This document shows, one piece after another, positions 6,689 to 21,449 of a stretch of 64,000 nt of DNA. Under the pieces are notes generated by a model. The model had not been told where the DNA came from, made no database searches, and saw only the letters and a program-made list of their open reading frames with translations. Source of the DNA: Flavobacterium anhuiense (GTDB lineage Bacteria > Bacteroidota > Bacteroidia > Flavobacteriales > Flavobacteriaceae); NCBI RefSeq assembly GCF_004151235.1, contig NZ_JUIV01000003.1:1-64000 (forward strand), in the 5' to 3' direction. How positions within the stretch are numbered: position 1 is the stretch's first letter; every line of letters starts with the position of its first letter. The translations under genes and the position numbers were made by a program.

Positions 6689-6697
6689 GTTTTTTTT

Positions 6698-6803
6698 GCC
6701 ACAGATTAAAAGGATTAGAAGGATTATTTATTTTGAGAGATAAATCTTTGCGATAATTTTTAGCGCAAACAAAAAAATCATTTTAATCCTTTAAATCTGT
6801 GGC
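6698..6803. repeat. Inverted repeat of the CACAGATTA family between convergent genes
   Basis: Arms 6698-6725 and 6776-6803 match at 25 of 28 positions. The left arm after GC is a run of 9-base units (CACAGATTA, AAAGGATTA, GAAGGATT). The 50-base loop contains a second small hairpin. It fills most of the gap between two convergent genes and could serve as a bidirectional terminator. Confidence 0.8.
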
Positions 6804-6810
6804 TAAACTT

Positions 6811-8187: not shown

Positions 8188-9534
8188 ATGACACACAAAA
8201 TTTTAATTATAGACGACGAAGAAAAACTGAGAAGTCTTCTGGCAAGAATTATAAAATCGGAAGGATTTGAAGTTTTTGAAGCCAAAGATCTAAAATCGGG
8301 TTTAAAAAAACTGGAACAAACCGAAATTGATGTTGTTTTGTGTGATGTCAAACTTCCTGACGGAAACGGGGTCGATTTTCTTCAAAGCATAAAAAACCGT
8401 TTTCCCATAACAGAAGTGATTCTGCTGACTGCTTTTGGAAATATTCCTGATGGTGTTCAGGCGATGAAAAACGGCGCTTTTGATTATATTGTAAAAGGTG
8501 ACGATAACGATAAAATTATTCCTCTTCTTTATAAAGCGGTAGAAAAAGTACAATTGCAGAAAAAAGTACAACAGTTAGAAAAACGAATTAACGATAAATA
8601 TTCTTTTTCGACTATCATTGGAAAGTCAAAAGGAATCGAACAGGTTATTGATCTTGCCCAAAAAGTAGCCAAAACCGATTCGACTGTTTTACTTATGGGT
8701 GAAACTGGAACGGGAAAAGAAGTTTTTGCGCAAGCGATTCATGAAAACAGCAATCGTGCAGGAAAATCTTTTGTGGCGCTGAACTGTAGCACTTTCACAA
8801 AAGAAATTTTAGAAAGCGAGCTTTTCGGTCATAAACAAGGTGCTTTTACTGGAGCTGTAAAAGATAAAAAAGGTTTTATTGAAGAAGCAAACGGTGGAAC
8901 TTTATTCTTAGATGAAATTGGTGAAATGCCAATTGATCTTCAAGCAAAATTATTGCGTGTTTTAGAAACTTCTGAATATATTCCCGTTGGAGACACGACT
9001 CCAAAAAAATCAAATTTTAGGTTAATTGCCGCTACAAACCGTGATTTAAAGATAGAAAGCGACGAACATCGTTTTCGCTCTGATTTGTATTTCCGTTTGA
9101 ATATCTTCGAAATCAAATTGCCTTCGTTACGAGAAAGAATTAAAGATATTCCGTTATTAGCCAATTATTACGTGAAGCAATTTTCAGAAAAAACGAATAA
9201 AAAAGCGCTACAAATTGCGGATGACTTTTTACAGAAATTAGAGAATTATTCCTGGCCAGGAAATATCCGTGAACTGAAAAACGTCATCGAAAGATCGGTT
9301 ATTTTGAGCAATGGAGATATTTTAACTTCAGATGTTCTTCCTTACGAAATGCAACATCAAGCCGAAAATAATTCGAAACCAATGTCGGCTTTCTCGATGC
9401 AGAGTGTTGAAAAATTGCATATTCAAAAGGTTTTAAATTATACGAAAGGAAATAAAGCGGAAACGGCAAGATTACTAGAAATTGGAATTGCCACTTTGTA
9501 TAGAAAATTGGAAGAGTACAATATACAGTCGTAG
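8188..9534 (+). CDS. Sigma-54-dependent NtrC-family response regulator of the Kdp locus
   Basis: A 448-aa regulator. The receiver domain (1-125) has acidic pocket Asp9/Asp10, phospho-acceptor Asp53, Thr81 and Lys103. The AAA+ domain (about 140-370) has Walker A GETGTGKE (171-178), the sigma-54 contact motif GAFTGA (218-223) and Walker B LFLDEIGE (239-246). The C-terminal Fis-type HTH ends NKAETARLLEIGIATLYRKL. It sits ahead of kdpFABC, where proteobacterial loci carry the OmpR-type KdpE, so it probably takes KdpE's role; the likely partner kinase is the protein at 18157-19884. Sigma-54 control of Kdp is an inference: no convincing GG/GC promoter was found nearby. Confidence 0.85.
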   Translation: MTHKILIIDDEEKLRSLLARIIKSEGFEVFEAKDLKSGLKKLEQTEIDVVLCDVKLPDGNGVDFLQSIKNRFPITEVILLTAFGNIPDGVQAMKNGAFDYIVKGDDNDKIIPLLYKAVEKVQLQKKVQQLEKRINDKYSFSTIIGKSKGIEQVIDLAQKVAKTDSTVLLMGETGTGKEVFAQAIHENSNRAGKSFVALNCSTFTKEILESELFGHKQGAFTGAVKDKKGFIEEANGGTLFLDEIGEMPIDLQAKLLRVLETSEYIPVGDTTPKKSNFRLIAATNRDLKIESDEHRFRSDLYFRLNIFEIKLPSLRERIKDIPLLANYYVKQFSEKTNKKALQIADDFLQKLENYSWPGNIRELKNVIERSVILSNGDILTSDVLPYEMQHQAENNSKPMSAFSMQSVEKLHIQKVLNYTKGNKAETARLLEIGIATLYRKLEEYNIQS

Positions 9535-9537
9535 TCC

Positions 9538-9634
9538 GGCAAGGTTTTCAAAAACCTTGTAGGTTTAGATTTTTAAAAATTTACATATTTAACGTTTTAA
9601 TAGAATACCTACAAGGTTTTTGAAAACCTTGCAG
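9538..9634. repeat. Paired AGGTTTT palindromes directly behind the regulator stop codon
   Basis: The copies at 9538-9564 and 9607-9634 are near-perfect reverse complements of each other, and each is itself a palindrome (AAGGTTTT/AAAACCTT). They are separated by 42 AT-rich bases. The first begins 4 bases after the TAG stop. The pair can fold as two small hairpins or one long one. Confidence 0.8.
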
Positions 9635-9672
9635 AAAATATCGATTGTCAAGATATACCTTATCATTTCAAT

Positions 9673-9702
9673 AAAAGCTTATCAAAATGATAGGCTTTTT
9701 TT
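9673..9702 (+). terminator. Rho-independent terminator
   Basis: An 11-bp stem, AAAAGCTTATC / GATAGGCTTTT, with loop AAAAT and one T-G pair, followed by a run of T. It lies downstream of the response regulator and would separate it from the Kdp structural genes. Confidence 0.75.
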
Positions 9703-9819
9703 ATGCCTAATTTTTGGCACAAAACTACATTTCTTTTGTTTACAACACTTTAGACATCATTTGACTTTTTCGGAACATCTTTTGGCATAAAGAGGAAGAA
9801 CATTAAAAATTCATTCCAA

Positions 9820-10101
9820 ATGAAAAATCAAGTTACCTCAATCTACAAACAAGCAGAACGCTTTGCTGAGATTACTAAAAAAAATATTATCTGCGGTAAT
9901 ATCGTTCGTGCTAAAAAATGTTTAGCCCTTGCCGAACGGTTATTTATAAACGGAAGCATCGAAACTAAAAATGCCATTTCTAACGTGTATGTTTTTTCTG
10001 TTTCGTCTTTTATGGAAATGCGCCACTGCAATATCTCACACCTTTTCCCTCAAACGCTTAAAGCAGAATATATCAAACAAGTTAATGCTTCGGGAGTCTA
10101 A
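9820..10101 (+). CDS. Small protein of unknown function upstream of kdpF (possibly DUF7674-like)
   Basis: A 93-aa soluble, helix-rich protein without signal peptide or membrane segment. The middle resembles a helical repeat: IICGNIVRAKKCLALAERLF and following residues could form a TPR-like hairpin. I recall similar small proteins next to kdp genes in other flavobacteria under a DUF label, but this cannot be verified here. It is the first gene after the terminator at 9673-9702 and precedes the three micro-genes and kdpA, so it probably belongs to the Kdp transcript. A role in controlling or assembling the pump is a guess from position only. Confidence 0.6.
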   Translation: MKNQVTSIYKQAERFAEITKKNIICGNIVRAKKCLALAERLFINGSIETKNAISNVYVFSVSSFMEMRHCNISHLFPQTLKAEYIKQVNASGV

Positions 10102-10105
10102 AAAA

Positions 10106-10172
10106 TTTAATCGGTTAACTGTTTAATTGTTTAATCGAAAAATCTAAAGTCTACAATCTTAAATCTAAAAAA
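10106..10172. repeat. Low-complexity TTTAATNG/AATCTAAA tract
   Basis: The tract contains repeated words (GTTTAATTGTTTAATCG, then AATCTAAAGTCTACAATCTTAAATCTAAAA) between the 93-aa gene and the first micro-gene. Similar TTTAGATTT words occur at 63438-63480. No hairpin is clear. Confidence 0.4.
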
Positions 10173-10175
10173 ATC

Positions 10176-10259
10176 ATGGTCACAATCCTCCTTCTCGCTT
10201 TGGCAGTTTTACTGTTTGCGATTTGTTTTCTGTCAGTTGAATTCTTTGAAAAAATCTAA
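10176..10259 (+). CDS. 27-aa single-span membrane micro-protein upstream of kdpF
   Basis: ATG to TAA encodes 27 residues: a continuous hydrophobic stretch (VTILLLALAVLLFAICFL) followed by a short acidic and basic tail (SVEFFEKI). It has the size and shape of KdpF-type peptides but is a separate reading frame ending 3 bases before the kdpF ATG. It may be a second KdpF-like subunit or a small regulator of the pump. Support comes from its position in a run of tightly packed micro-ORFs and its transmembrane character; conservation could not be checked. Confidence 0.5.
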   Translation: MVTILLLALAVLLFAICFLSVEFFEKI

Positions 10260-10262
10260 ATC

Positions 10263-10340
10263 ATGACTGCACTATTTATTGTTTCAATCGCCGTTTTCGT
10301 GTATTTGATTTATGTATTAATCAAACCCGAAAAATTTTAA
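10263..10340 (+). CDS. kdpF: KdpF, small subunit of the K+-transporting ATPase
   Basis: A 25-aa peptide, MTALFIVSIAVFVYLIYVLI followed by KPEKF. The single transmembrane helix ending in Y-x-L-x-(K/R)-P-E-(K/R)-F is the hallmark of KdpF, which in other bacteria stabilises the KdpABC complex by lying against KdpA in the membrane. It lies between two other micro-genes and about 130 bases ahead of kdpA. Assignment rests on the end motif and context and is confident despite its short length. Confidence 0.85.
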   Translation: MTALFIVSIAVFVYLIYVLIKPEKF

Positions 10341-10342
10341 AA

Positions 10343-10438
10343 ATGAAAAAGTCGAATTATAAAAATAAAAAGACATCTCTACTGTATGCATGTGCTGTCT
10401 GGACATTAGCCTTTATCGTACTTATCCTGTTTTTATAA
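10343..10438 (+). CDS. 31-aa single-span membrane micro-protein between kdpF and kdpA
   Basis: It starts 2 bases after the kdpF stop codon and encodes 31 residues: a strongly basic head (MKKSNYKNKK) and one hydrophobic span (LLYACAVWTLAFIVLILFL). The positive-inside rule predicts a cytoplasmic N terminus. It ends 36 bases before kdpA. Tight spacing argues for co-translation with kdpF and kdpA. I do not recognise the family; it could be an extra pump subunit. Whether it is conserved is the key test. Confidence 0.5.
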   Translation: MKKSNYKNKKTSLLYACAVWTLAFIVLILFL

Positions 10439-10474
10439 AAATCTAAAAATTAAATAATTTCTAACAAATAAAAT

Positions 10475-12196
10475 ATGAACACAGAATTAATAGGTGTCAT
10501 AGGTATTTTTATCCTTACCATAATTTTAGCTATTCCGGTAGGGAAATATATTGCTAAAGTCTTCTTGGGAAACAAAACACTTCTTGACCCAATTTTCAAT
10601 CCAATTGAAAAACTTATTTTTAAAATCAGCGGTATCAATCCAGCTGAAGAAATGAACTGGAAGCAACATTTGAAAGCACTTTTAAGTATCAATATGCTTT
10701 GGTTTTTTCTCTGCTTCTTTGTTTTGCTTTTTCAGGGCTCTTTGCCTTTAAATCCAGATAATAATCCGTCAATGGCTTCCGATTTGGCTTTTAATACTGC
10801 CATTTCGTTTTTAGTGAATTGCGATTTGCAGCATTATTCAGGCGAAAGCGGCGTTTCTTACTTGTCGCAAATGGTCTTAATGTTTCTGCAATTCGTTTCG
10901 GCTGGTGTCGGAATCGCTGCTGCGGTAATGGTTTTTACCGCTATGCGCGAAAGAACCACAGATAAACTAGGGAATTTTTACAATAATTTAATTAAAAGCT
11001 GTACTCGTATTTTACTTCCGCTTTCTGTCATTGTAGCGGTTATTTTAACATTCAATGGAACTCCAATGACATTTGAAGGAAAAGATACTATTACCACATT
11101 ACAAGGTGATCAAGTTGAAGTTTCTCGTGGACCAGCTGCAGCATTCGTGGCGATCAAACATATCGGTACAAATGGAGGCGGATTTTTTGGAGCTAACTCA
11201 GCTCATCCGTTAGAAAACCCTAGTTATTTTACAAATGCTGTTGAGCTTTGGGCACAAATGATTGTTCCGTTTGCAATGATTTTTGCACTTGGTTTTTTCC
11301 TTAACAAAAGGAAATTCTCTTTCATCATTTTTGGTGTCATGACCGTTGGATTTTTGCTTCTGGTAATTCCAACAATCTCTAGTGAACTCAACGGAAATCC
11401 TGCTATTGCAAAAATGGGAATTGCACAGACAACTGGAGCAATGGAAGGAAAAGAAGTACGTTTTGGCCCTGCTATTTCAGGATTTTGGAGCATTGCTACA
11501 ACAGTGATTTCTACGGGTTCTGTAAATAGTATGCACGATAGCGCAATGCCAGTCTCTGGAGCTATGCAGTTATTGGCGATGATGGTCAATGCCTTTTACG
11601 GCGGATGTGGTGTAGGTTACCTCAACTTTTACATCTTCATTATTCTGGCGGTATTTATTTCTGGTTTAATGGTTGGCCGAACTCCTGAATTTTTAGGAAA
11701 GAAAATCGAAGCTCGAGAAGTAAAAATCGCTGCTTTTATTGCAATTCTTCATCCGTTATTGATTTTAGCTGGAACTGCTCTAGCTTCTTATTTTGCTGCG
11801 AACGATACTGCAATGGGATATTGGTTCAGCGGAAATGCCACAGGATGGTTAAACAATCCTGGAAATCATGGATTCTCTGAAATGTTATATGAATATACTT
11901 CGAGCGCTGCCAACAACGGTTCTGGTTTTGAAGGTTTGGGAGATAATAATCCGTTTTGGAATATCACAACTGGAATTGTTTTATTGTTAAGCCGTTTCAT
12001 TCCAATTATTGGGCCTCTTGCAATTGCAGGTTTATTAGCCAATAAAAAATATATTCCTGAAAGTGCGGGAACTTTAAAAACCGATACTTCAATTTTTGGA
12101 ATAATGATTTTTGCCGTAATCGCCATTATTGCTGCCTTGTCTTTCTTTCCAGCATTAGCTCTAGGTCCATTGGCGGAATTCTTTACTTTAAAATAA
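10475..12196 (+). CDS. kdpA: KdpA, potassium-binding channel subunit of the Kdp ATPase
   Basis: A 573-aa protein with about ten membrane spans, close to the normal 557-570 aa. The four selectivity-filter loops of this channel family are recognisable: QHYSGESGVSYLSQM, the GTNGGGFFGANSAHPLENP loop, FYGGCGVGYLNFY and SAANNGSGFEGL. The protein binds K+ from the periplasm and passes it to KdpB. The start ATG 10475 gives an N terminus that enters the first membrane helix directly. The 195-base gap to kdpB is unusually long for this operon and holds an inverted repeat (12226-12362). Confidence 0.97.
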   Translation: MNTELIGVIGIFILTIILAIPVGKYIAKVFLGNKTLLDPIFNPIEKLIFKISGINPAEEMNWKQHLKALLSINMLWFFLCFFVLLFQGSLPLNPDNNPSMASDLAFNTAISFLVNCDLQHYSGESGVSYLSQMVLMFLQFVSAGVGIAAAVMVFTAMRERTTDKLGNFYNNLIKSCTRILLPLSVIVAVILTFNGTPMTFEGKDTITTLQGDQVEVSRGPAAAFVAIKHIGTNGGGFFGANSAHPLENPSYFTNAVELWAQMIVPFAMIFALGFFLNKRKFSFIIFGVMTVGFLLLVIPTISSELNGNPAIAKMGIAQTTGAMEGKEVRFGPAISGFWSIATTVISTGSVNSMHDSAMPVSGAMQLLAMMVNAFYGGCGVGYLNFYIFIILAVFISGLMVGRTPEFLGKKIEAREVKIAAFIAILHPLLILAGTALASYFAANDTAMGYWFSGNATGWLNNPGNHGFSEMLYEYTSSAANNGSGFEGLGDNNPFWNITTGIVLLLSRFIPIIGPLAIAGLLANKKYIPESAGTLKTDTSIFGIMIFAVIAIIAALSFFPALALGPLAEFFTLK

Positions 12197-12225
12197 TAAC
12201 TCATTTTTCAATGCTGAAAATATTT

Positions 12226-12362
12226 TAAACACATAGAGACATAGTTTTTTCTTTACTAAAAAAAGAAAACCAAAAGAAACTAGTTTCTAACACATAGCTA
12301 TGTGTATTAATGCAAGTGAAACGTCTTTATCTCGAAGTAAAATCTATGTTTCTATGTGTTTA
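12226..12362. repeat. Inverted repeat with CACATAG arms and an inner perfect palindrome (kdpA-kdpB gap)
   Basis: Outer arms 12226-12244 and 12344-12362 match at 18 of 19 positions. Their core, ACATAGAGACATAG, is made of 8-base units. Inside, 12289-12304 contains the perfect 16-base palindrome ACACATAGCTATGTGT, carrying the same CACATAG word. The element fills most of the gap between two genes that must be expressed together. Confidence 0.75.
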
Positions 12363-12391
12363 GAAAAAAGTCAACCAAATAATATAAAAAA

Positions 12392-14449
12392 ATGACAACT
12401 AATAAATCCACATCATTATTTGAAAGCAAACAGGTAAAAGAAGCCTTATTGCAGTCTTTTGTGAAGCTGAATCCAAAAATGATGGTAAAAAATCCGGTAA
12501 TGTTTACCGTAGAAATCGGAACTGCGATTATGTTTGCCGTTTGCGTTTCGATCTTAATGGGCGCTAACGATCAGGGCAGTTTTGTTTACAATTTCATTGT
12601 TTTTTTAATTTTACTTGCAACGCTTTTGTTTGCCAATTTCGCCGAAGCGATTGCCGAAGCTCGAGGAAAAGCACAAGCTGACAGTTTAAGAAAAACCCGT
12701 GAAGAAACTCCGGCAAGACAAATTCTGCCTAACGGCGAAATTAAAAACGTGAGCTCTTCGGCATTAAAAAAAGACGATATTTTCATTTGCGAAGCGGGGG
12801 ATTTAATTGCCGCTGACGGAGAAATTATCGAAGGTTTGGCAACAATAGACGAAAGTGCCATCACGGGAGAAAGTGCTCCAGTAATTCGTGAAGCTGGCGG
12901 AGATAAATCTTCGGTAACTGGAGGGACAAAAGTATTATCTGATAAAATCAAAGTAAAAGTAACTTCTGAACCTGGCGAAAGCTTTTTAGATAAAATGATT
13001 GCTTTGGTTGAAGGTGCAAGCCGTCAGAAAACGCCAAACGAAATTGCTTTGACGATTTTACTAGCGGCTTTTACCTTAATCTTCGTGATTGTTTGTGTTA
13101 CGCTAAAACCGTTTGCCGATTATGCCAACGCTCCTATTACAATCGCTGCTTTTATTGCTTTGTTTGTGTGTTTAATTCCAACAACAATTGGAGGTTTACT
13201 TTCTGCGATTGGTATTGCCGGAATGGACAGAGCTTTACGTGCCAACGTAATTACAAAATCTGGTAAAGCTGTTGAAACTGCTGGCGATATTGATGTTTTG
13301 CTTTTGGATAAAACCGGAACAATCACAATTGGAAACAGAAAAGCAACCAATTTTTACCCAACAAAAGGAATTTCTTTTGATGATTTCGTTAAATCAGCAG
13401 TTTTGAGTTCGCTTGCCGATGATACACCTGAAGGAAAAAGTATTCTCGAGTTAAGTGAAATGATTGATGTGAAAAGTGAAACGAAAGCCTCGTTTTTACA
13501 AACTACTTCTGACATCGCGCACACTATCAAGTTTACTGCCGAAACCAGAACTTCTGGAGTAGTATTAAAAGACGGAACTAATATTAGAAAAGGTGCACAA
13601 GATGCTGCAAGGAATATTGCTCAACAAGCTGGAAATTCTTTTCCAGAAGATACAGCACAACAAGTAATTTCAATTTCGTCTAATGGAGGAACGCCTTTAG
13701 TAGTAATCAAAAACAACGAAATTCAAGGTGTAATCGAATTACAGGATATTATCAAAACCGGAATGAAAGAACGTTTTGAACGCTTACGCCGAATGGGAAT
13801 CAAAACGGTTATGGTTACGGGTGATAATCCGCTTACAGCTAAGTTTATTGCTGAAAAGGCTGGTGTTGATGATTTTATCGCTGAAGCAAAACCTGAGGAT
13901 AAAATGAACTATATCCGAAAAGAACAAGCTGAAGGAAGATTGGTTGCGATGATGGGAGACGGAACAAACGACGCTCCTGCCCTTGCGCAAGCAAATGTTG
14001 GAGTTGCCATGAACAGCGGAACTCAAGCTGCAAAAGAAGCTGGAAATATGGTCGATCTTGACAATGACCCAACCAAGTTAATTGAGATTGTTGAAATTGG
14101 AAAACAGCTTTTAATGACTAGAGGAACTTTGACTACTTTCTCAATAGCCAATGACGTTGCAAAATATTTTGCCATTGTTCCTGCGCTGTTTATTACTGCG
14201 ATTCCTGCGCTTCAAGGTTTAAATATTATGCATCTCCACAGTCCAGAAAGTGCTATTTTATCGGCTGTGATTTTCAATGCGATTATCATTCCGATTTTGA
14301 TTCCGCTTGCATTGAAAGGTGTTGAATACCGTCCGATTGGGGCAAGTGCCATTTTAAAACGCAATCTTTTGATTTATGGTTTAGGCGGATTGATTGTTCC
14401 GTTTATCGGTATAAAAATAATTGATTTAGTTGTTGCGCTATTTATGTAA
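12392..14449 (+). CDS. kdpB: KdpB, P-type ATPase subunit of the Kdp pump
   Basis: A 685-aa P-type ATPase of the Kdp class. The phosphorylated Asp is Asp306 in DKTGT (306-310). The actuator motif TGES is at 158-161; its Ser161 corresponds to the regulatory serine phosphorylated in the E. coli pump. Later signatures are [10 protein letters not shown] and [13 protein letters not shown]. The protein hydrolyses ATP and drives K+ import through KdpA. Length is normal and no motif is damaged. A 95-base gap with an octamer-repeat hairpin separates it from kdpC. Confidence 0.97.
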
Positions 14450-14455
14450 ATAGAA

Positions 14456-14532
14456 GTTACTAAGACACTAAGCTACTAAGATTCTAAGTTTTTTTTCTTA
14501 GCAGCTTAGAAACTTAGCAACTCAGAATCTTA
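14456..14532. repeat. Octamer-repeat hairpin, CTAAGNNN / CTTAGNNN (kdpB-kdpC gap)
   Basis: The left arm is an exact 8-base register: CTAAGACA, CTAAGCTA, CTAAGATT, CTAAG (14460-14488). After a T run, the right arm repeats in the same register: CTTAGCAG, CTTAGAAA, CTTAGCAA, CTCAGAAT, CTTA (14497-14532). The arms pair through the CTAAG/CTTAG words only; the NNN positions are not complementary. A T8 run follows the left arm. Confidence 0.8.
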
Positions 14533-14544
14533 AAAATAAAAAAA

Positions 14545-15096
14545 ATGAAAACTATATTTTCACTCATAAAACTTACTGCCGTTACTTTAATCTTATTTGC
14601 AGTTATTTATCCTCTTGCGATTTACGGAATCGCACAAATTGCTCCAAACCAAGGAAAAGGAGAAACTATTTCGGTTAACGGAAAAGTTGTTGGCTATCAA
14701 AAAATTGGACAAAAGTTCGATAAATCTAATTATTTCTGGGGAAGACCTTCGGCTGTAGATTACAACGCTGCAGGAAGTGCTGGAAGCAACAAAGGGCCAA
14801 GCAATGCTGAATATTTGGCTTTGGTTCAAAAAAGAATTGATACGCTTTTATTGGTTCATCCTTATTTGAAAAAATCTGATATTCCAGCTGATATGGTTAC
14901 GGCCTCAGGAAGTGGTTTAGATCCGAATGTTTCTCCGCAAGGCGCTTTGATTCAGGTGAAACGTATTGCTAAAGAAAGAAATTTGGCTGAAGCAAAAGTA
15001 AAAGCTTTGGTAGAATCTAAAATTAACTCGGCTGTTGTTGGTCCTGAAACTGTGAATGTTTTGGAATTGAATGTGGCGCTGGATCAGCTTCGCTAA
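14545..15096 (+). CDS. kdpC: KdpC, accessory subunit of the Kdp pump
   Basis: A 183-aa protein with an N-terminal membrane anchor (about residues 8-32) and an external domain. Family-typical segments are YFWGRPSAVDYNAAGSAGSN and SGSGLDPNVSP, the second near residue 120. KdpC is required for assembly and potassium affinity of KdpFABC. Length is close to the usual 190 aa. Its TAA stop codon lies inside the first CTAAAGCT unit of the following octamer repeat, so repeat and coding end are fused. Confidence 0.96.
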   Translation: MKTIFSLIKLTAVTLILFAVIYPLAIYGIAQIAPNQGKGETISVNGKVVGYQKIGQKFDKSNYFWGRPSAVDYNAAGSAGSNKGPSNAEYLALVQKRIDTLLLVHPYLKKSDIPADMVTASGSGLDPNVSPQGALIQVKRIAKERNLAEAKVKALVESKINSAVVGPETVNVLELNVALDQLR

Positions 15097-15137
15097 AGCT
15101 CTAAGTTGCTAAGGTTCTAAGATACTGAGATTCTAAG
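15092..15137 (+). repeat. CTAAG octamer run starting in the kdpC stop codon
   Basis: Six units in an 8-base register begin near 15093: CTAAAGCT, CTAAGTTG, CTAAGGTT, CTAAGATA, CTGAGATT, CTAAG, then T8. The first unit contains the kdpC stop TAA. It is the same type as the left arm at 14460-14488 but lacks a CTTAG right arm. Confidence 0.75.
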
Positions 15138-15145
15138 TTTTTTTT

Positions 15146-15172
15146 CCTAACAGGTTTCCGAAACCTGTTAGG
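15146..15172. repeat. AGGTTT palindrome
   Basis: Perfect 12-bp arms, CCTAACAGGTTT and AAACCTGTTAGG, around CCG. It directly follows the T8 run of the octamer repeat, and together these could terminate transcription behind kdpC. Confidence 0.75.
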
Positions 15173-15211
15173 TATGAATCGGCATCAACTATTATCGTAA
15201 AGTAATCGTGT

Positions 15212-15321
15212 AGTTTGTCATCCCGAGGAACGAGGGATCTCTGCAAGTAGCTCAACAAAGATTGGCGAATTTCTATACGGAGTTTCTTGTGGAGATTTCT
15301 CCTCCGTCGAAATGACAAACT
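15212..15321. repeat. Long inverted repeat with AGTTTGTCAT ends
   Basis: Arms 15212-15241 and 15292-15321 match at 23 of 30 positions; the outer ten bases AGTTTGTCAT/ATGACAAACT are perfect, and several mismatches would be G-U pairs in RNA. The loop is 50 bases. I remember similar GTCATCCCGAGG...GATCTC words as widespread repeats in Bacteroidota, which cannot be checked here. Confidence 0.75.
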
Positions 15322-15368
15322 AGATGGAAAAAAACGAAAACGAAAACGCCTTTTTACCCCAAATGTCC

Positions 15369-15457
15369 TAGCCCCGATAGTAGTGGAAATCCTTTTGCTT
15401 TTTTCTTTAAAAAGCAAAAGATTGAAACGGATAGCGGGATTAGCTCCTAAAAAAATC
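15369..15457 (+). repeat. Complete TAGCCCCGAT...AGCGGGATTAGCTCC element
   Basis: It begins with TAGCCCCGATAGTAGTGGAAAT, has a central perfect 12-bp hairpin (15392-15403 with 15409-15420) and ends with GATTGAAACGGATAGCGGGATTAGCTCC plus an A run. The 3' part is shared with 1-48. Conserved flanks around a hairpin of simple sequence suggest a structured RNA or mobile miniature element. It fills the last part of the 390-base gap ahead of the porin gene. Confidence 0.7.
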
Positions 15458-15486
15458 TACTAAATAAATAATTGAATACCCAAAAA

Positions 15487-16563
15487 ATGAAAAAAATAAT
15501 ACTTACTGCTTTAATCGCTTTTGGTTTTAGCAATTTACATGCACAAGAAGAATCTAAAAGTCCGTTTACGTTTTCTGGATATGTAGACGTTTATTATAGT
15601 TATGATTTCGGGAAACCGGAAAATCATACAAAACCGGGCTTTTTTTATAATTATAACCGAAGCAATGAAGTGAACCTGAATTTAGGTTTGGCAAAAGTGA
15701 ATTATTCGAAGGGAAATGTCCGAGCAAATTTGGCGCTGATGGCGGGAACTTATGCACAATATAATATGTCGGCTGAACAGGATTTACTGCAGAATGTTTA
15801 TGAAGCGAATGTTGGCGTGAAGATTTCGCAAAAACATGATTTATGGATTGATGCCGGAATAATGCCTTCGCATATTGGTTTTGAAAGCGCGATTGGAAAA
15901 GATTGCGCCAATTTAACCCGAAGCATTCTGGCAGAGAATTCTCCTTATTATGAAACTGGAGTAAAAATTGGTTATACTTCTGATTCTGGAAAATGGTATT
16001 TGGCAGCCATGTATTTGAACGGCTGGCAGCGAATTCAGAAAATTGAAGGAAACCAAACGCCTGCTTTTGGAACGCAGGTTACATACAAACCTTCGGACAG
16101 AGTGATTTTGAATTGGAGTACGTATATTGGAAATGAACAGCCCGATATTGATAAAAAGTGGCGTTACTTCAATAATTTTTATGGACAATTTAAAGTAGCA
16201 GAAAAAGTGAATTTGACAACTGGTTTTGATATTGGTTCTCAGCAATCGGCTAAAGGAAGCGAAAAATATGATGTTTGGTTCTCTCCTGTTTTGATTCTGC
16301 AATACAAACCGACTGATAAAATTCAGCTTGCAGCACGTGGAGAATATTACAGTGATGAAAAAGGTGTAATTATCGCAACTGAAACTCCAAACGGATTTAA
16401 AACTTACGGATTTTCAGCTAACTTTGATTACTTAGTTACTGATAATGTTATGTTTAGAATTGAAGCCAGAAATCTATCTAGCAAAGATGAAATTTTTACC
16501 AAAAATAATCAGCCAACAGATACAAATACCTTTGTGACAACTTCTTTGGCAATCAGTTTCTAG
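15487..16563 (+). CDS. Outer-membrane porin of the Kdp locus
   Basis: A 358-aa protein from ATG 15487; a TTG codon 15 bases earlier is in frame but would spoil the signal peptide, so the ATG is preferred. Residues 1-20 (MKKIILTALIAFGFSNLHAQ) form a Sec signal peptide. The rest is a series of alternating beta strands rich in Tyr, Trp and Gly (for example YVDVYYSYDFG) ending in a strand with a terminal Phe (TTSLAISF), as expected for a beta-barrel. It matches the putative beta-barrel porin type often found next to kdp in Bacteroidota. The likely role is passage of K+ or another small solute across the outer membrane. Confidence 0.85.
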   Translation: MKKIILTALIAFGFSNLHAQEESKSPFTFSGYVDVYYSYDFGKPENHTKPGFFYNYNRSNEVNLNLGLAKVNYSKGNVRANLALMAGTYAQYNMSAEQDLLQNVYEANVGVKISQKHDLWIDAGIMPSHIGFESAIGKDCANLTRSILAENSPYYETGVKIGYTSDSGKWYLAAMYLNGWQRIQKIEGNQTPAFGTQVTYKPSDRVILNWSTYIGNEQPDIDKKWRYFNNFYGQFKVAEKVNLTTGFDIGSQQSAKGSEKYDVWFSPVLILQYKPTDKIQLAARGEYYSDEKGVIIATETPNGFKTYGFSANFDYLVTDNVMFRIEARNLSSKDEIFTKNNQPTDTNTFVTTSLAISF

Positions 16564-16575
16564 GAAAATTTTCTT

Positions 16576-16748
16576 GCCACAGATTACACAGATTAAAAGG
16601 ATTCTTTGTGTTGAGTCATTTGCCACGAATTGCACAAATTTTCACGAATTAATTACTTTAACGTTTATGCCATTTTTAAAATAAAAATTTGTGCAATTCG
16701 TGTAATTCGTGGCTGAAAAAAATCACTTTAATCTGTGAAATCTGTGGC
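16576..16748. repeat. Nested inverted repeat: CACGAATT element inside a CACAGATT element
   Basis: Outer arms 16576-16603 and 16721-16748 match at about 25 of 28 positions and are built of 9-base units (CACAGATTA, CACAGATTA, AAAGGATT). The inner pair 16622-16650 and 16683-16713 consists of CACGAATT and GCACAAATT units, but in permuted order in the two arms (outer unit GCCACGAATT shared, the next two swapped). This suggests insertion of one element into the loop of another. Confidence 0.75.
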
Positions 16749-16763
16749 TAAAAAAAATAAAAA

Positions 16764-16788
16764 CTTTGTGACTTAGCGCCTTCGTGGC
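16764..16788. repeat. Orphan right arm of a CACTAAGA-type element
   Basis: CTTTGTGACTTAGCGCCTTC followed by GTGGC closely matches the right arm of the element at 21361-21441, but no left arm is present. It ends 9 bases before the kdpD start codon. Confidence 0.65.
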
Positions 16789-16797
16789 AAAAAAAAC

Positions 16798-17925
16798 ATG
16801 AAAGAAGAAAACGAAAACAACGCACAGCATTTTCTGGATTTGATTCAAAAATCCCGAAAGGGAAAGTTTAAAATCTACATTGGAATGAGTGCTGGTGTGG
16901 GCAAAACTTTTCGTATGCTTCAGGAAGCGCATTCGTTATTGAAAAACGGAATCGATGTCAAAATCGGCTACATCGAAACGCATATGCGGAAGGAAACACA
17001 TGAATTATTAGCTGGCCTTCCTATTATTCCAAGGCGAACAATTTTTTATAAAGGAAAACAGCTTGAAGAACTTGATGTACAAGCCATTATTAATCTTCGT
17101 CCGGAAGTTGTTATTGTTGATGAATTGGCGCATACCAATGTTGAAGGAAGCAAAAATGAAAAACGCTGGCAGGATGTTCTAGAGATTTTAGACGCTGGAA
17201 TTAATGTAATTTCAGCTGTGAATATTCAGCATATTGAAAGTTTAAACGAAGATGTAAAACGAATCACAAATATTGATGTTCAGGAGCGAATTCCTGATAA
17301 TGTTCTGCGTCTGGCAGATGAAGTCGTAAATATCGATTTGACTTCAGAGGATTTAATTGCGCGTTTAAAAGAAGGAAAAATTTATACGTCAGATAAAATT
17401 CCAACAGCTTTGGCTAATTTTTTTAAATCGGAACAGATTCTGCAATTGCGTGAATTGGCTTTGAAAGAAGTCGCAAGTCAGGTTGTGCGAAAAGTAGAAA
17501 GCGAAGTTCCGAATCTGCATGCTTTACGGCATGAAAAATTGTTGGCTTGCATTAGCAGTAATGAAAAAACTGCTAAAATCATTATTAGAAAAGCCGCTCG
17601 ATTGGCAAGTTATTACAACGGCTCTTGGTATGTTTTGTATGTAGAAACTCCTAAAGAAAGTAGTACAAGAATTGCACTTGATAAACAAAGACATTTAATT
17701 AATAACTTTAAACTCGCTGTACAATTGGGCGCAGAGGTTATTAAATTGGAAAATTCAAATATTACAAATGCTATTTTGACAACGGTAGAAGAAAAACAAA
17801 TTACAACTGTGTGCATCGGAAAACCGCATTTTAATTTGTTTAAAGTAATTTTGTCTACAACAATTTTCAGACGTTTGCTAAACAAATTGTCTTTATCAAA
17901 TGTAGATCTTGTTATTCTGTCGTGA
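16798..17925 (+). CDS. kdpD: Truncated KdpD: sensor (ATP-binding) plus universal-stress domain, no kinase
   Basis: A 375-aa protein matching only the N-terminal cytoplasmic part of KdpD. The KdpD signature domain (about 22-230) has Walker A GMSAGVGKT (29-37) and Walker B VVIVDELAHTN (104-114). From about 245 a UspA-like domain runs to the end. The four membrane spans, GAF and histidine-kinase domains of full KdpD (about 890 aa) are absent. It is not simply broken: it ends cleanly, and a membrane histidine kinase follows. Inference: the K+/ATP-sensing half acts in trans on that kinase. Confidence 0.9.
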   Translation: MKEENENNAQHFLDLIQKSRKGKFKIYIGMSAGVGKTFRMLQEAHSLLKNGIDVKIGYIETHMRKETHELLAGLPIIPRRTIFYKGKQLEELDVQAIINLRPEVVIVDELAHTNVEGSKNEKRWQDVLEILDAGINVISAVNIQHIESLNEDVKRITNIDVQERIPDNVLRLADEVVNIDLTSEDLIARLKEGKIYTSDKIPTALANFFKSEQILQLRELALKEVASQVVRKVESEVPNLHALRHEKLLACISSNEKTAKIIIRKAARLASYYNGSWYVLYVETPKESSTRIALDKQRHLINNFKLAVQLGAEVIKLENSNITNAILTTVEEKQITTVCIGKPHFNLFKVILSTTIFRRLLNKLSLSNVDLVILS

Positions 17926-17935
17926 AAAATTTTTA

Positions 17936-18143
17936 AACCATATAAGTTATATCAGTTCATTTAAACGAGGCTGCTTAATTTAACCGCAAAGGGCGCAAAG
18001 TTTTGCGCAAAGCACACAAAGATTAAATTAAAAAACTTTGCGTCCTTGCGACTTTGCGAGCAAAAAATCTAGCGAACTTTGCGAAACCTTTGCGCCCTTT
18101 GCGGTTCAAAAAACTAACATTTTCTTATATAACTTATATGGTT
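17936..18143. repeat. Nested inverted repeat with perfect 17- and 19-bp arms (kdpD-kinase gap)
   Basis: The outer arms are perfect: 17936-17952 (AACCATATAAGTTATAT) with 18127-18143. The inner arms are also perfect: 17982-18000 (AACCGCAAAGGGCGCAAAG) with 18088-18106, in 9-base units (CGCAAAGGG, CGCAAAG). Between the inner arms are more CTTTGCG words. The right end lies 13 bases before the kinase ATG, so folding of this RNA could limit access to the start. Confidence 0.85.
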
Positions 18144-18156
18144 CAAAAAAAACTAA

Positions 18157-19884
18157 ATGTTTTATAAAATGAGAATTAAAACCAAATTGAATCTGGGTGT
18201 TGGATTGTTATTTTTAATGATCATCATTCTCTCGTTAGTGAGTGCTTATTCTGTTTTTTTGATTAAGCAGGACACTGAAAATATTTTGAAATCCAATTAC
18301 AATACGCTGGAATATTCCAGAAATATGATTTTGGCTTTGGACGAAATGAAATCCGGTTCAAAAGAAACGATTCAGAGTTTTGAGGAGAATCTCGAAAAGC
18401 AGACTCAAAATATTACGGAACCAGGCGAAAAACAAGCTACCGAAAAGCTTAAAGCCAGTTTTGCTCTTTTGGACAAAAACAACTCCAACGAAACTGTAAA
18501 AACACAGATTCGTCAGGATATTTTTGCAATTATGAAGCTAAATCTGGATGCCATAAAACAGAAAAGCGACATTGCTAAACAATCGGCTGAAACGGCTAAT
18601 CTTTCAATTGCCATTGTGGGAAGTTTATGCTTTCTGATTGCTTTTAATTTATTGATTAATCTTCCGAATAATATTGCCAATCCAATTAAAGAATTAACAC
18701 TGAGCATTAAGGAAATTGCCAATAAAAATTATTCCGAACGCGTTCATTTTACAAGTCATAGCGAATTTGGAGATCTTGCAAAATCTTTCAATACAATGGC
18801 GCAAAAGCTTGAAGAATATCATGACAGCAATGTTTATAAACTTCTATTTGAAAAAAAGCGACTGGAAACCTTGATTAATAATATGAACGATCCTATTATT
18901 GGTTTGGATAATGAAGGAATTGTTTTGTTTGTGAATGATGAAGCACTGAAAATTATTGGTCTAAAATCGGAAGATATTATTGGAAAACCAGCATCTGAAT
19001 TGGCAATTTCTAATGATTTGATTCGTTCTTTGATTCTGAAAGAAAGTGAAACTCCGAAAAAACAACCTCTCAAAATTTTTGCTCACGGAAAAGAAAGTTA
19101 TTTCGAAAAAGAAATTCATAATATCACGATAACGCCAACGGGCGAAGAAAAAGAAATTAATATTGGCGATGTCATTATTCTTCGAAATATTACGCTTTTT
19201 AAAGAACTGGATTTTGCTAAAACCAATTTCATTGCCACCGTTTCTCACGAATTAAAAACGCCGATTGCTTCTATAAAACTAAGTTTACAATTGCTTGAAA
19301 ATGGAAAAACAGGAGATATGAACGATGATCAGAAACAATTGGTTGAAAGCATTAAAGACGACAGTCAGCGATTGTTGAAAATTACAGGCGAATTGCTGAA
19401 TTTATCGCAATTGGAAACGGGAAATATTCAGTTGAATATTGGAAAAAGCAATCCGCACGAAATTGTAAGATATGCTGTAGAAGCTGTAAAAGTTCAGGCA
19501 GATCAAAAACAGATCCAATTAGTTGTTGATGCTGATGAGAACCTCAAAAGCGTAAAAGCTGATGCCGAAAAAACAGGCTGGGTTTTAATTAATTATTTAT
19601 CAAATGCCATTAGATATTCATCTGAAAAAAGTACGATTCTCATCAAATTAAAAGAAGAAAATAATCAAATGGTTTTTCAGGTAATTGATACTGGAAAAGG
19701 AATTGATACAAGATACAAAGACAAGGTTTTTGACAAATATTTTCAAGTTCCAGGCAGTCAGAAATCGGGAACGGGATTGGGATTAGCGATTAGTAAAGAA
19801 TTTATTGAAGCTCAAAATGGAAGCGTTGGCGTAGAGAGTAATTTAGGTTTGGGAAGTACATTTTGGTTTTCGTTGAAAGTATAA
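18157..19884 (+). CDS. Membrane histidine kinase of the Kdp locus (HAMP-PAS-HisKA-HATPase)
   Basis: A 575-aa sensor kinase. A first membrane span (about 12-35), an external helical segment, a second span (about 148-172), a HAMP domain and a PAS domain (about 235-330) precede the kinase core. The phospho-accepting His is His364 in VSHELKTP, and the ATP-binding domain ends with GTGLGLAISKEF. It has no KdpD domain, which is encoded separately just upstream. The start may also be ATG 18169 (MRIKTK). Most likely it phosphorylates the sigma-54 activator at 8188-9534; that pairing is inferred from the locus. Confidence 0.88.
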   Translation: MFYKMRIKTKLNLGVGLLFLMIIILSLVSAYSVFLIKQDTENILKSNYNTLEYSRNMILALDEMKSGSKETIQSFEENLEKQTQNITEPGEKQATEKLKASFALLDKNNSNETVKTQIRQDIFAIMKLNLDAIKQKSDIAKQSAETANLSIAIVGSLCFLIAFNLLINLPNNIANPIKELTLSIKEIANKNYSERVHFTSHSEFGDLAKSFNTMAQKLEEYHDSNVYKLLFEKKRLETLINNMNDPIIGLDNEGIVLFVNDEALKIIGLKSEDIIGKPASELAISNDLIRSLILKESETPKKQPLKIFAHGKESYFEKEIHNITITPTGEEKEINIGDVIILRNITLFKELDFAKTNFIATVSHELKTPIASIKLSLQLLENGKTGDMNDDQKQLVESIKDDSQRLLKITGELLNLSQLETGNIQLNIGKSNPHEIVRYAVEAVKVQADQKQIQLVVDADENLKSVKADAEKTGWVLINYLSNAIRYSSEKSTILIKLKEENNQMVFQVIDTGKGIDTRYKDKVFDKYFQVPGSQKSGTGLGLAISKEFIEAQNGSVGVESNLGLGSTFWFSLKV

Positions 19885-21356: not shown

Positions 21357-21360
21357 TTTT

Positions 21361-21441
21361 TTTTGCCACAAAGGCACTAAGACACAAAGTTTATTTATCT
21401 TTTTTTGAATAGCTTTGTGTCTTAGTGCCTTCGTGGCAAAA
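21361..21441. repeat. Inverted repeat of the CACTAAGA octamer family between convergent genes
   Basis: Arms 21361-21389 and 21413-21441 match at 28 of 29 positions. The left arm after GC is in 8-base register: CACAAAGG, CACTAAGA, CACAAAG. The 23-base loop is AT-rich. Its position between the PAP2 stop and the repressor stop suits a two-way terminator. The right arm recurs alone at 16764-16788. Confidence 0.85.
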
Positions 21442-21449
21442 ACTCTTTT

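Follow-up and report, generated by a model that had tools for sequence, protein, structure and literature searches.

Two kinds of palindromic element between the genes of a Flavobacterium Kdp locus resemble gene-less relatives of word repeats that enclose small IVP and GxxExxY genes

The Kdp locus of Flavobacterium anhuiense (assembly GCF_004151235.1; 5.3 Mb in 43 contigs) lies in the first 64,000 nucleotides of contig NZ_JUIV01000003.1, a stretch referred to here as the window. Its genes follow one another as regulator, small gene, kdpA, kdpB, kdpC, porin, kdpD and kinase (8188–19884), separated by gaps that hold palindromic repeats. An earlier note on this DNA claimed that every large gap of the locus carries a different palindromic element, and proposed that these elements tune subunit ratios through hairpins or mark a hot spot for insertion. 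Here, the elements are described gap by gap, compared with the same gaps in relatives, and related to repeats that enclose small genes of two families, PF05635 (23S_rRNA_IVP, also S23p, a four-helix-bundle protein; hereafter IVP) and PF13366 (PDDEXK_3; hereafter GxxExxY). Relatives are the best 80 of 187 loci, nearly all from Flavobacterium (81 loci when the window is counted), and their KdpC proteins are 86–97% identical to that of the window. All 80 relatives have homologues of the regulator, small gene, kdpA, kdpB and kdpC, and 78 have those of the porin, kdpD and kinase.

All six named gaps contain inverted repeats. When the best inverted repeat of each gap is compared with 40 dinucleotide shuffles, z is 9.2 for regulator–small gene, 2.8 for kdpA–kdpB, 2.3 for kdpB–kdpC, 5.7 for kdpC–porin, 15.1 for porin–kdpD and 10.6 for kdpD–kinase; by sequence alone, four gaps are strong and two (kdpA–kdpB and kdpB–kdpC) are moderate. 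RNA folding against 200 shuffles gives, in the same order, z of −10.8, −5.4, −3.2, −6.9 (kdpC–porin, folded over 15211–15322 alone), −9.9 and −7.8, with 2 of 200 shuffles folding equally well for the kdpB–kdpC stretch and none for the five others. The term 'every large gap' goes too far: the 373-bp gap at 10102–10474, between the small gene and kdpA, has no palindrome in the inverted-repeat test (z 0.6), and its size is partly due to three very small hydrophobic open reading frames (ORFs) at 10176–10439. One of these presumably resembles KdpF. The same gap holds solo word arrays, GTTTAATTGTTTAATCG and AATCTAAAGTCTACAATCTTAAATCTAAA, which have no partner arm (10107–10172) and are similar by eye to the arms of two IVP genes elsewhere in the genome (L096 and L099).

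The regulator–small gene gap contains a pair of palindromes, CAAGGTTTTCAAAAACCTTG, in inverted order (9539–9632), with fully complementary arms (100%; 9539–9564 and 9607–9632). The pair resembles repetitive extragenic palindromic (REP) sequences and their hairpin-forming doublets (REPINs) in its short palindromes, inverted pairing and several genome copies (e.g., L128:14824–14929); 19 matches occur in the genome, a count in which the query and overlapping matches on either strand are included. In another F. anhuiense locus (L008), the palindromes are replaced by other sequence. As the stretch from about 9670 is nearly identical there and in relatives, only the palindromic part of this gap qualifies as a repeat. 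The kdpA–kdpB gap contains an element of ACATAG words with arms AAACACATAGAGACATAG and CTATGTTTCTATGTGTTT (12223–12365), supported by inverted repeat and fold. By word pattern, this element occurs in 46 of 81 loci, 18 of which also have a REP-like palindrome, nested in the ACATAG element in those gaps read by eye. The sequence AAATAATA flanks the insert on both sides; it is AT-rich and may be due to chance or be a deletion scar.

The kdpB–kdpC element consists of CTAAG words, an IVP-type word, in inverted CTAAGNNN repeats (14460–14532; inverted repeat and fold), and the CTAAG word also borders an IVP gene (L093) in the same genome. In some relatives, this gap has AATGTGA words or an additional REP. 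A CTAAG half-array, common to L008, begins 4 nt past the kdpC stop codon (15100–15138), so the word is common to the kdpB–kdpC gap and the start of the kdpC–porin gap, and the elements are not different in each gap. The kdpC–porin gap continues with a small REP-like palindrome found by the inverted-repeat search (CCTAACAGGTTTC/GAAACCTGTTAGG; 15146–15172) and the hairpin GTCATCCCGAGGAACGAGGGATC...TCGAAATGAC (15211–15322), whose motif also adjoins small GIY-YIG genes. The last hairpin of this gap, on the forward strand at 15366–15445, is a known RNA, Flavo-1 (RF01705; 81.6 bits with the covariance model versus a gathering score of 42), and does not belong to the mobile elements. Nothing ties Flavo-1 to the surrounding elements. 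Its tip hairpin differs in sequence in L008–L010 with complementarity kept.

The porin–kdpD and kdpD–kinase gaps each hold a composite, a palindrome within a palindrome, rather than one element. In porin–kdpD (16569–16755), an outer CACAGATT-word palindrome (arms 16569–16607 and 16717–16755) encloses an inner CACGAATT-word palindrome (16622–16642 and 16684–16713), and the words are of the GxxExxY type. The inner word makes up the arms of a GxxExxY gene elsewhere in the genome (L103), and the outer word is close to CGCAGATT of another (L101). A solo arm, CTTTGTGACTTAGCGCCTTCGTGGC, ends 9 nt upstream of the kdpD start (16764–16788); a full palindrome of this kind is at 21360–21442. At 6694–6807 and 21360–21442, the window has two more word palindromes (CCACAGATT and CCACAAAGGCACTAAG types), both between convergent genes. 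In kdpD–kinase (17930–18149), an outer AACCATATAAG palindrome surrounds a palindrome of CGCAAAG words, a GxxExxY-type word. The element has 87 matches in the genome (counted as for the first gap), and the outer and inner parts match separate places, so that one element lies within another; relatives have the outer part alone or both.

The elements are of four kinds: REP-like, GTCATTTCGA-type GIY-YIG-linked, IVP-type with 7–8-nt words, and GxxExxY-type with words of about 8–10 nt. As at least four kinds are present, a single element family was rejected.

Copies of these elements are observed beyond the Kdp locus. In 20 evenly spaced 20-kb stretches of the genome (400 kb; contigs C1 and C2), strong inverted repeats occur in 34 of 180 gaps of at least 90 bp, versus 4 of 8 gaps around Kdp; elsewhere in the window, they occur in 3 of 20. 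These counts are lower bounds because the sequence-only inverted-repeat test overlooks degenerate word elements, such as that of kdpB–kdpC (z 2.3). The sampled elements reuse the Kdp word families. By orientation, they occupy 1 of 44 divergent, 10 of 25 convergent and 23 of 111 co-directional gaps (33 of 136 non-divergent gaps), and scarcity in divergent gaps is expected if the elements sit behind genes. These counts go part of the way to an equal frequency of repeats in all gaps of the genome, which would speak against an arrangement peculiar to Kdp. As the locus was chosen after the fact, it is at most a dense patch, and a Kdp hot spot was rejected as a firm claim.

Comparison of the same gaps among relatives reveals large variation. 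In 79–81 loci including the window, gap lengths are 8–563 bp for kdpA–kdpB, 83–266 bp for kdpB–kdpC, 222–524 bp for kdpC–porin, 70–275 bp for porin–kdpD and 39–336 bp for kdpD–kinase. The kdpA–kdpB gap is empty (8–18 bp) in 11 of 81 loci. Among 14 genomes that include the window's own and otherwise lie outside these species, three have a kdpB–kdpC gap of 13 bp (L300 and L301) or 19 bp (L293); by eye, this gap contains other arrays of 7-nt words in L302, L294, L295 and L298, and nothing obvious in L296 and L297. Element families at the relatives' gaps were assigned with hand-made word patterns, which fit all but 1 of 81 kdpB–kdpC, 1 of 79 porin–kdpD and 13 of 79 kdpD–kinase gaps. By these patterns, porin–kdpD contains CAGATT, CGAATT, AAGGC, CATTAAG or AATGTGA elements, and kdpD–kinase contains AACCATATAAG with or without inner CGCAAAG, AATGTGA or CATTAAG. 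Different elements at one gap among relatives, together with the empty kdpA–kdpB sites, indicate that elements land in these gaps and are quickly exchanged.

This variation bears on the proposal that the hairpins have a function in the Kdp operon itself, in which they would set RNA processing or stability and hence the subunit ratio, the hairpin being required and its sequence free. All six stretches fold better than shuffles, hairpins of unlike sequence substitute for one another in one gap, and kdpB–kdpC, porin–kdpD and kdpD–kinase are never shorter than 39 bp in 79–81 loci (minimum 83, 70 and 39 bp), which could mean constraint. Nevertheless, kdpA–kdpB is empty in 11 loci and kdpB–kdpC nearly so in three genomes, families and lengths vary widely among loci, and the elements occur genome-wide; a functional role of this kind is improbable. 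The tuning of subunit ratios is unsupported in that the elements vary in identity and length and are missing from some loci at two gaps, and a Kdp-specific regulatory series was rejected on account of the empty and swapped gaps and the genome-wide copies.

Swapping is seen even between the most similar loci. Among the 40 closest locus pairs, content differs in 31 at kdpA–kdpB, 13 at kdpB–kdpC, 27 at porin–kdpD and 29 at kdpD–kinase, compared with 79, 31, 83 and 81% of all locus pairs; as close pairs differ about as often as all pairs, closeness of loci hardly matters. On a shallow kdp tree (FastTree; closest locus pairs 0.06 substitutions per site apart), unordered Fitch counts of state changes fall little short of those under shuffled labels (41 versus 46.4, 13 versus 13.7, 46 versus 49.3 and 44 versus 48.5). 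Both results would also be obtained if homologous recombination between species reshuffled the content of the gaps, the elements themselves being old and static. The ends of the flanking genes accord with such exchange: the last 60 nt of the upstream gene are 85, 87 and 88% identical in differing pairs versus 95, 91 and 92% in agreeing pairs, and the first 60 nt of the downstream gene are 95, 92 and 89% versus 97, 96 and 95%, suggesting that insertion touches gene ends or that short recombination tracts play a part. This effect is local, however; in differing pairs the gap is 36–50% identical, and the upstream gene 300–600 nt away is 92–93% identical, likewise in agreeing pairs. In addition, nested elements and many unlinked copies require spread within a genome. 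Recombination of static elements is thus unlikely as the explanation.

In sum, these comparisons make it fairly probable that the gaps are filled by dispersed palindromic elements acting as non-autonomous mobile repeats, with the Kdp genes as bystanders. The earlier observation is mostly right and was overstated as complete and as special to Kdp: repeated insertion is borne out by the empty sites and by the families swapped in the closest pairs, and the counts argue only faintly that Kdp is special.

A clue to the kind of element comes from relatives in which a gap contains a gene. In 11 of 81 kdpA–kdpB gaps, a reverse-strand ORF lies between arrays of AATGTGA words; 10 are full length and one (L059) has an early stop. 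The three given to Pfam all belong to PF05635 (121–129 bits). L076 has AATGTGA words in a 106-bp kdpA–kdpB gap without an ORF, so that gene-bearing and gene-less forms are observed at one site. The Kdp gap elements of the window itself contain no IVP gene. Its genome has eight PF05635 and three PF13366 matches; by eye, all 11 genes lie between word arrays, most with their own word, and in the flank-pairing test 7 of 8 PF05635 and 2 of 3 PF13366 genes pass (L098 and L102 fail). In other Flavobacterium genomes, CGCAAAG occurs in both flanks of GxxExxY genes L203, L208, L220 and L224, and CATTAAG in both flanks of L222 and L227, inverted at least in L227. Several gap elements therefore look like relatives, lacking the gene, of the repeats found around small IVP or GxxExxY genes. 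The IVP L095 matches a solved structure, 2gsc, and GxxExxY L103 has two weak matches to solved structures with unrelated names.

From reading of the window's own genome, a rule was drawn that word periods are 7–8 nt around IVP genes and 9–10 nt around GxxExxY genes, and this rule was tested on further loci. These came from 60 further Bacteroidota genomes (mostly one locus per genome; the own genome's eight and three loci are included), 40 Flavobacterium genomes, and IVP genes on cyanobacterial plasmids (14 of the 26 records with an IVP match; L190 and L191 are one orthologous site). Of the 61 Bacteroidota genomes searched, 45 have IVP and 29 have GxxExxY; the GxxExxY search of plasmids gave 8 records. 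Loci shorter than 3100 bases were dropped (2 of 37 IVP, 1 of 32 GxxExxY, 2 of 29 in each genus set and 3 of 31 GIY-YIG). Flank statistics cover 130 nt on each side.

For IVP, the best lag is 7, 8 or 14 in 68 of 76 loci (7 or 14 in 53; 8 in 15) versus 32 of 75 controls, tandem arrays are significant (p ≤ 0.02) in 65 of 76 versus 14 of 75, and the left and right flanks are complementary to each other in 49 of 76 versus 8 of 75. On the cyanobacterial plasmids, significant 7-nt arrays border 11 of the 14 IVP genes on both sides. For GxxExxY, the best lag is 8–10 in 39 of 58 loci (9 in 20, 8 in 10 and 10 in 9) versus 21 of 75 controls, it is 7 or 14 in only 3 of 58, and the arms are complementary in 35 of 58. 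Tandem period and inverted repeat are thus both borne out for IVP; GxxExxY loci have the inverted repeat and merely tend toward the period, as the arms are seldom significant as tandem arrays.

Words co-vary with the IVP that they enclose. In the 62 IVP loci whose tandem words reach significance at lag 7, 8 or 14, IVP identity correlates with word similarity in 1173 pairs from non-orthologous sites (Spearman 0.20, reached by none of 300 permutations). Mean word similarity rises from 0.48 below 45% IVP identity to 0.73 for the 11 pairs above 65%. This modest correlation is carried by 36 pairs of at least 55% identity. Pairs listed at the top include ones between Bacteroidota and cyanobacteria (L094–L192, L156–L199, and L152 with L190, L197 and L199). 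A single orthologous Flavobacterium site provides a further view. Its nine IVPs have a mean identity of 69%, compared with 43% to other IVPs, and the words in both arms are CTAAG in six genomes and CAAAG/CAGAG in three; word groups are largely the protein groups (67–99% and 69–76% identity within, 58–67% between).

Alternatively, IVP and GxxExxY genes might be passengers or targets, present by chance or insertion in repeats that arise from slippage or by another enzyme. A period of 7 nt is also the commonest in control-gene flanks (16 of 75), and IVP is not known to have a catalytic site or enzymatic activity, which counts against an active role of this protein. The finding of one period for each of two gene families, across three locus sets, is difficult to reconcile with passengers, as is co-variation at unrelated sites that extends across phyla, and we regard the passenger explanation as rather unlikely.

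REP-like and GIY-YIG-linked elements were also compared with the repeats beside genes. Six Y1_Tnp matches occur in the genome, with REP-like palindromes near the genes when flanks are read by eye; by the same reading, a related GGTTTCAACC-type palindrome pair accompanies Y1_Tnp gene L003, and exact CAAGGTTTTCAAAAACCTTG is beside none of the six. Palindromes of the GGTTTCAACC sort are also found in the relatives' kdpA–kdpB gaps. The GTCATTTCGA-type motif is in either flank of 13 of 28 small GIY-YIG genes versus 28 of 294 control genes, and in both flanks of 6 of 28 versus 1 of 294; one GIY-YIG gene, L106, lies between two such arms. This link is weaker than the other gene–repeat links.

A model for these elements can be built on known systems. 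The small RAYT gene has inverted copies of a repeat on its two sides, and this repeat is also found by itself in many intergenic gaps (PMC2817692). Word elements are similar in consisting of a repeat around a small gene and of solo copies in gaps, and the first gap and the small palindromes resemble REP pairs. Unlike RAYT, the genes inside word elements are PF05635 or PF13366 rather than Y1 transposases, and word elements are inverted halves of tandem 7–10-nt words, whereas a REP is one palindrome whose head reads GT(A/G)G. Intervening sequences (IVSs) of 23S rRNA are a second parallel: in Coxiella, tandem heptamers (GACAGAT) precede the S23p gene, the ends are complementary, and the authors already call IVSs selfish (PMC4990558). 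The elements here share with IVSs the protein family (PF05635), the complementarity of the ends and the tandem heptamers. They differ in lying between protein genes rather than in a 23S rRNA helix, with several words per genome and many gene-less copies.

By analogy with REP–RAYT and IVSs, we infer that IVP or GxxExxY would bind its own word and move the element. In this reading, elements land at gene ends inside operons, sometimes inside one another, and are replaced or lost quickly; the small protein would recognize its own word and, like RAYT on REPs, might act on every element bearing that word, either by itself or with the help of host enzymes. The specific proposal is that IVP reads tandem 7–8-nt words, that GxxExxY reads words about 9 nt long, that both mobilize or maintain the hairpins, and that word and protein co-evolve; we hold this to be evenly balanced between right and wrong. 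The trail probably leads to a variant of a REP-like system with another protein in the place of RAYT.

Several results weigh against mobile elements driven by these proteins. Significant flank pairing is absent in 27 of 76 IVP and 23 of 58 GxxExxY loci, and GxxExxY arms are significant as tandem arrays (p ≤ 0.02) in 10 of 58 loci versus 14 of 75 controls. Left and right words are more alike than 95% of other elements' words in only 32 of 62 IVP elements. The flank sets are partly dependent in that nine IVP loci are one orthologous site, and control genes come from the window's own genome only. A gene-bearing partner was not found for the ACATAG and outer AACCATATAAG families, and a clean target duplication is not established for the elements. 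The three gaps that are never very short might be under constraint, some of the swapping could stem from recombination between species, and movement of the elements is itself something that we infer.

Several features of neighboring genes may be added. The 93-aa gene ahead of kdpA (9820–10101) is DUF7674 (PF24722), conserved in 80 of 80 relatives. The sensor is apparently split at 16798–19884 into a 375-aa ORF, which we take to be KdpD-like, and a separate 575-aa ORF, presumably kinase-like; the regulator ORF upstream (8188–9534) is presumably a sigma-54-type response regulator. The order of these three is kept in 78 of 80 relatives. In two Flavobacterium genomes (L094 and L250), an IVP element directly precedes a gene starting MAKDIKFD, which is presumably GroEL-like. 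On the cyanobacterial plasmids, the places of the IVP gene include one between cas10 and a cmr3-type gene and, in two cases, one between cas6 and cas4; L192, L194 and L196 are the three loci with the gene inserted among CRISPR-associated genes.

Intergenic heptamer repeats are known in cyanobacteria as short tandemly repeated repetitive (STRR) sequences. Like the heptamer repeats TAACTGA of Beggiatoaceae and GGGAATC and GGGGAYT of Xanthomonas and Nostoc, the elements here are tandem heptamers between genes, and some of the bacterial groups concerned are the same. For published heptamer repeats, 'no mechanism is evident' (PMC4679880), and heptamer repeats are generally not found with mobile elements (PMC4692102); in the available parts of these two papers, neither names a mobile gene. 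The terms '23S' and 'four helix' are absent from both texts, and 'S23' is absent from PMC4679880. A further comparison is with a miniature inverted-repeat transposable element (MITE) of a DDE transposon: inverted repeats are present, and the AT-rich AAATAATA on both sides of the kdpA–kdpB insert is at most a candidate target-site duplication. In the open-access literature, to which the search was directed (subscription papers, e.g., the original STRR reports, lie outside it), no link of IVP or GxxExxY to word repeats was found, for the most part among the top hits listed, and the available parts of papers on GxxExxY, four-helix-bundle or IVP genes do not mention flanking repeats.

These findings advise caution: the spacing of genes in an operon, and the hairpins between them, are not necessarily regulatory; here, their turnover is faster than that of the genes. 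Two widespread families of unknown role, IVP and GxxExxY, gain a testable one, the reading of a short repeated DNA word, and the intergenic heptamer repeats that have been left without a carrier in print gain a candidate partner gene. If the proposal is true, a REP-like system that does without RAYT would be common in Bacteroidota and would occur in cyanobacteria as well. It would explain the origin of heptamer repeats and join the 23S rRNA IVSs to one mobile family.

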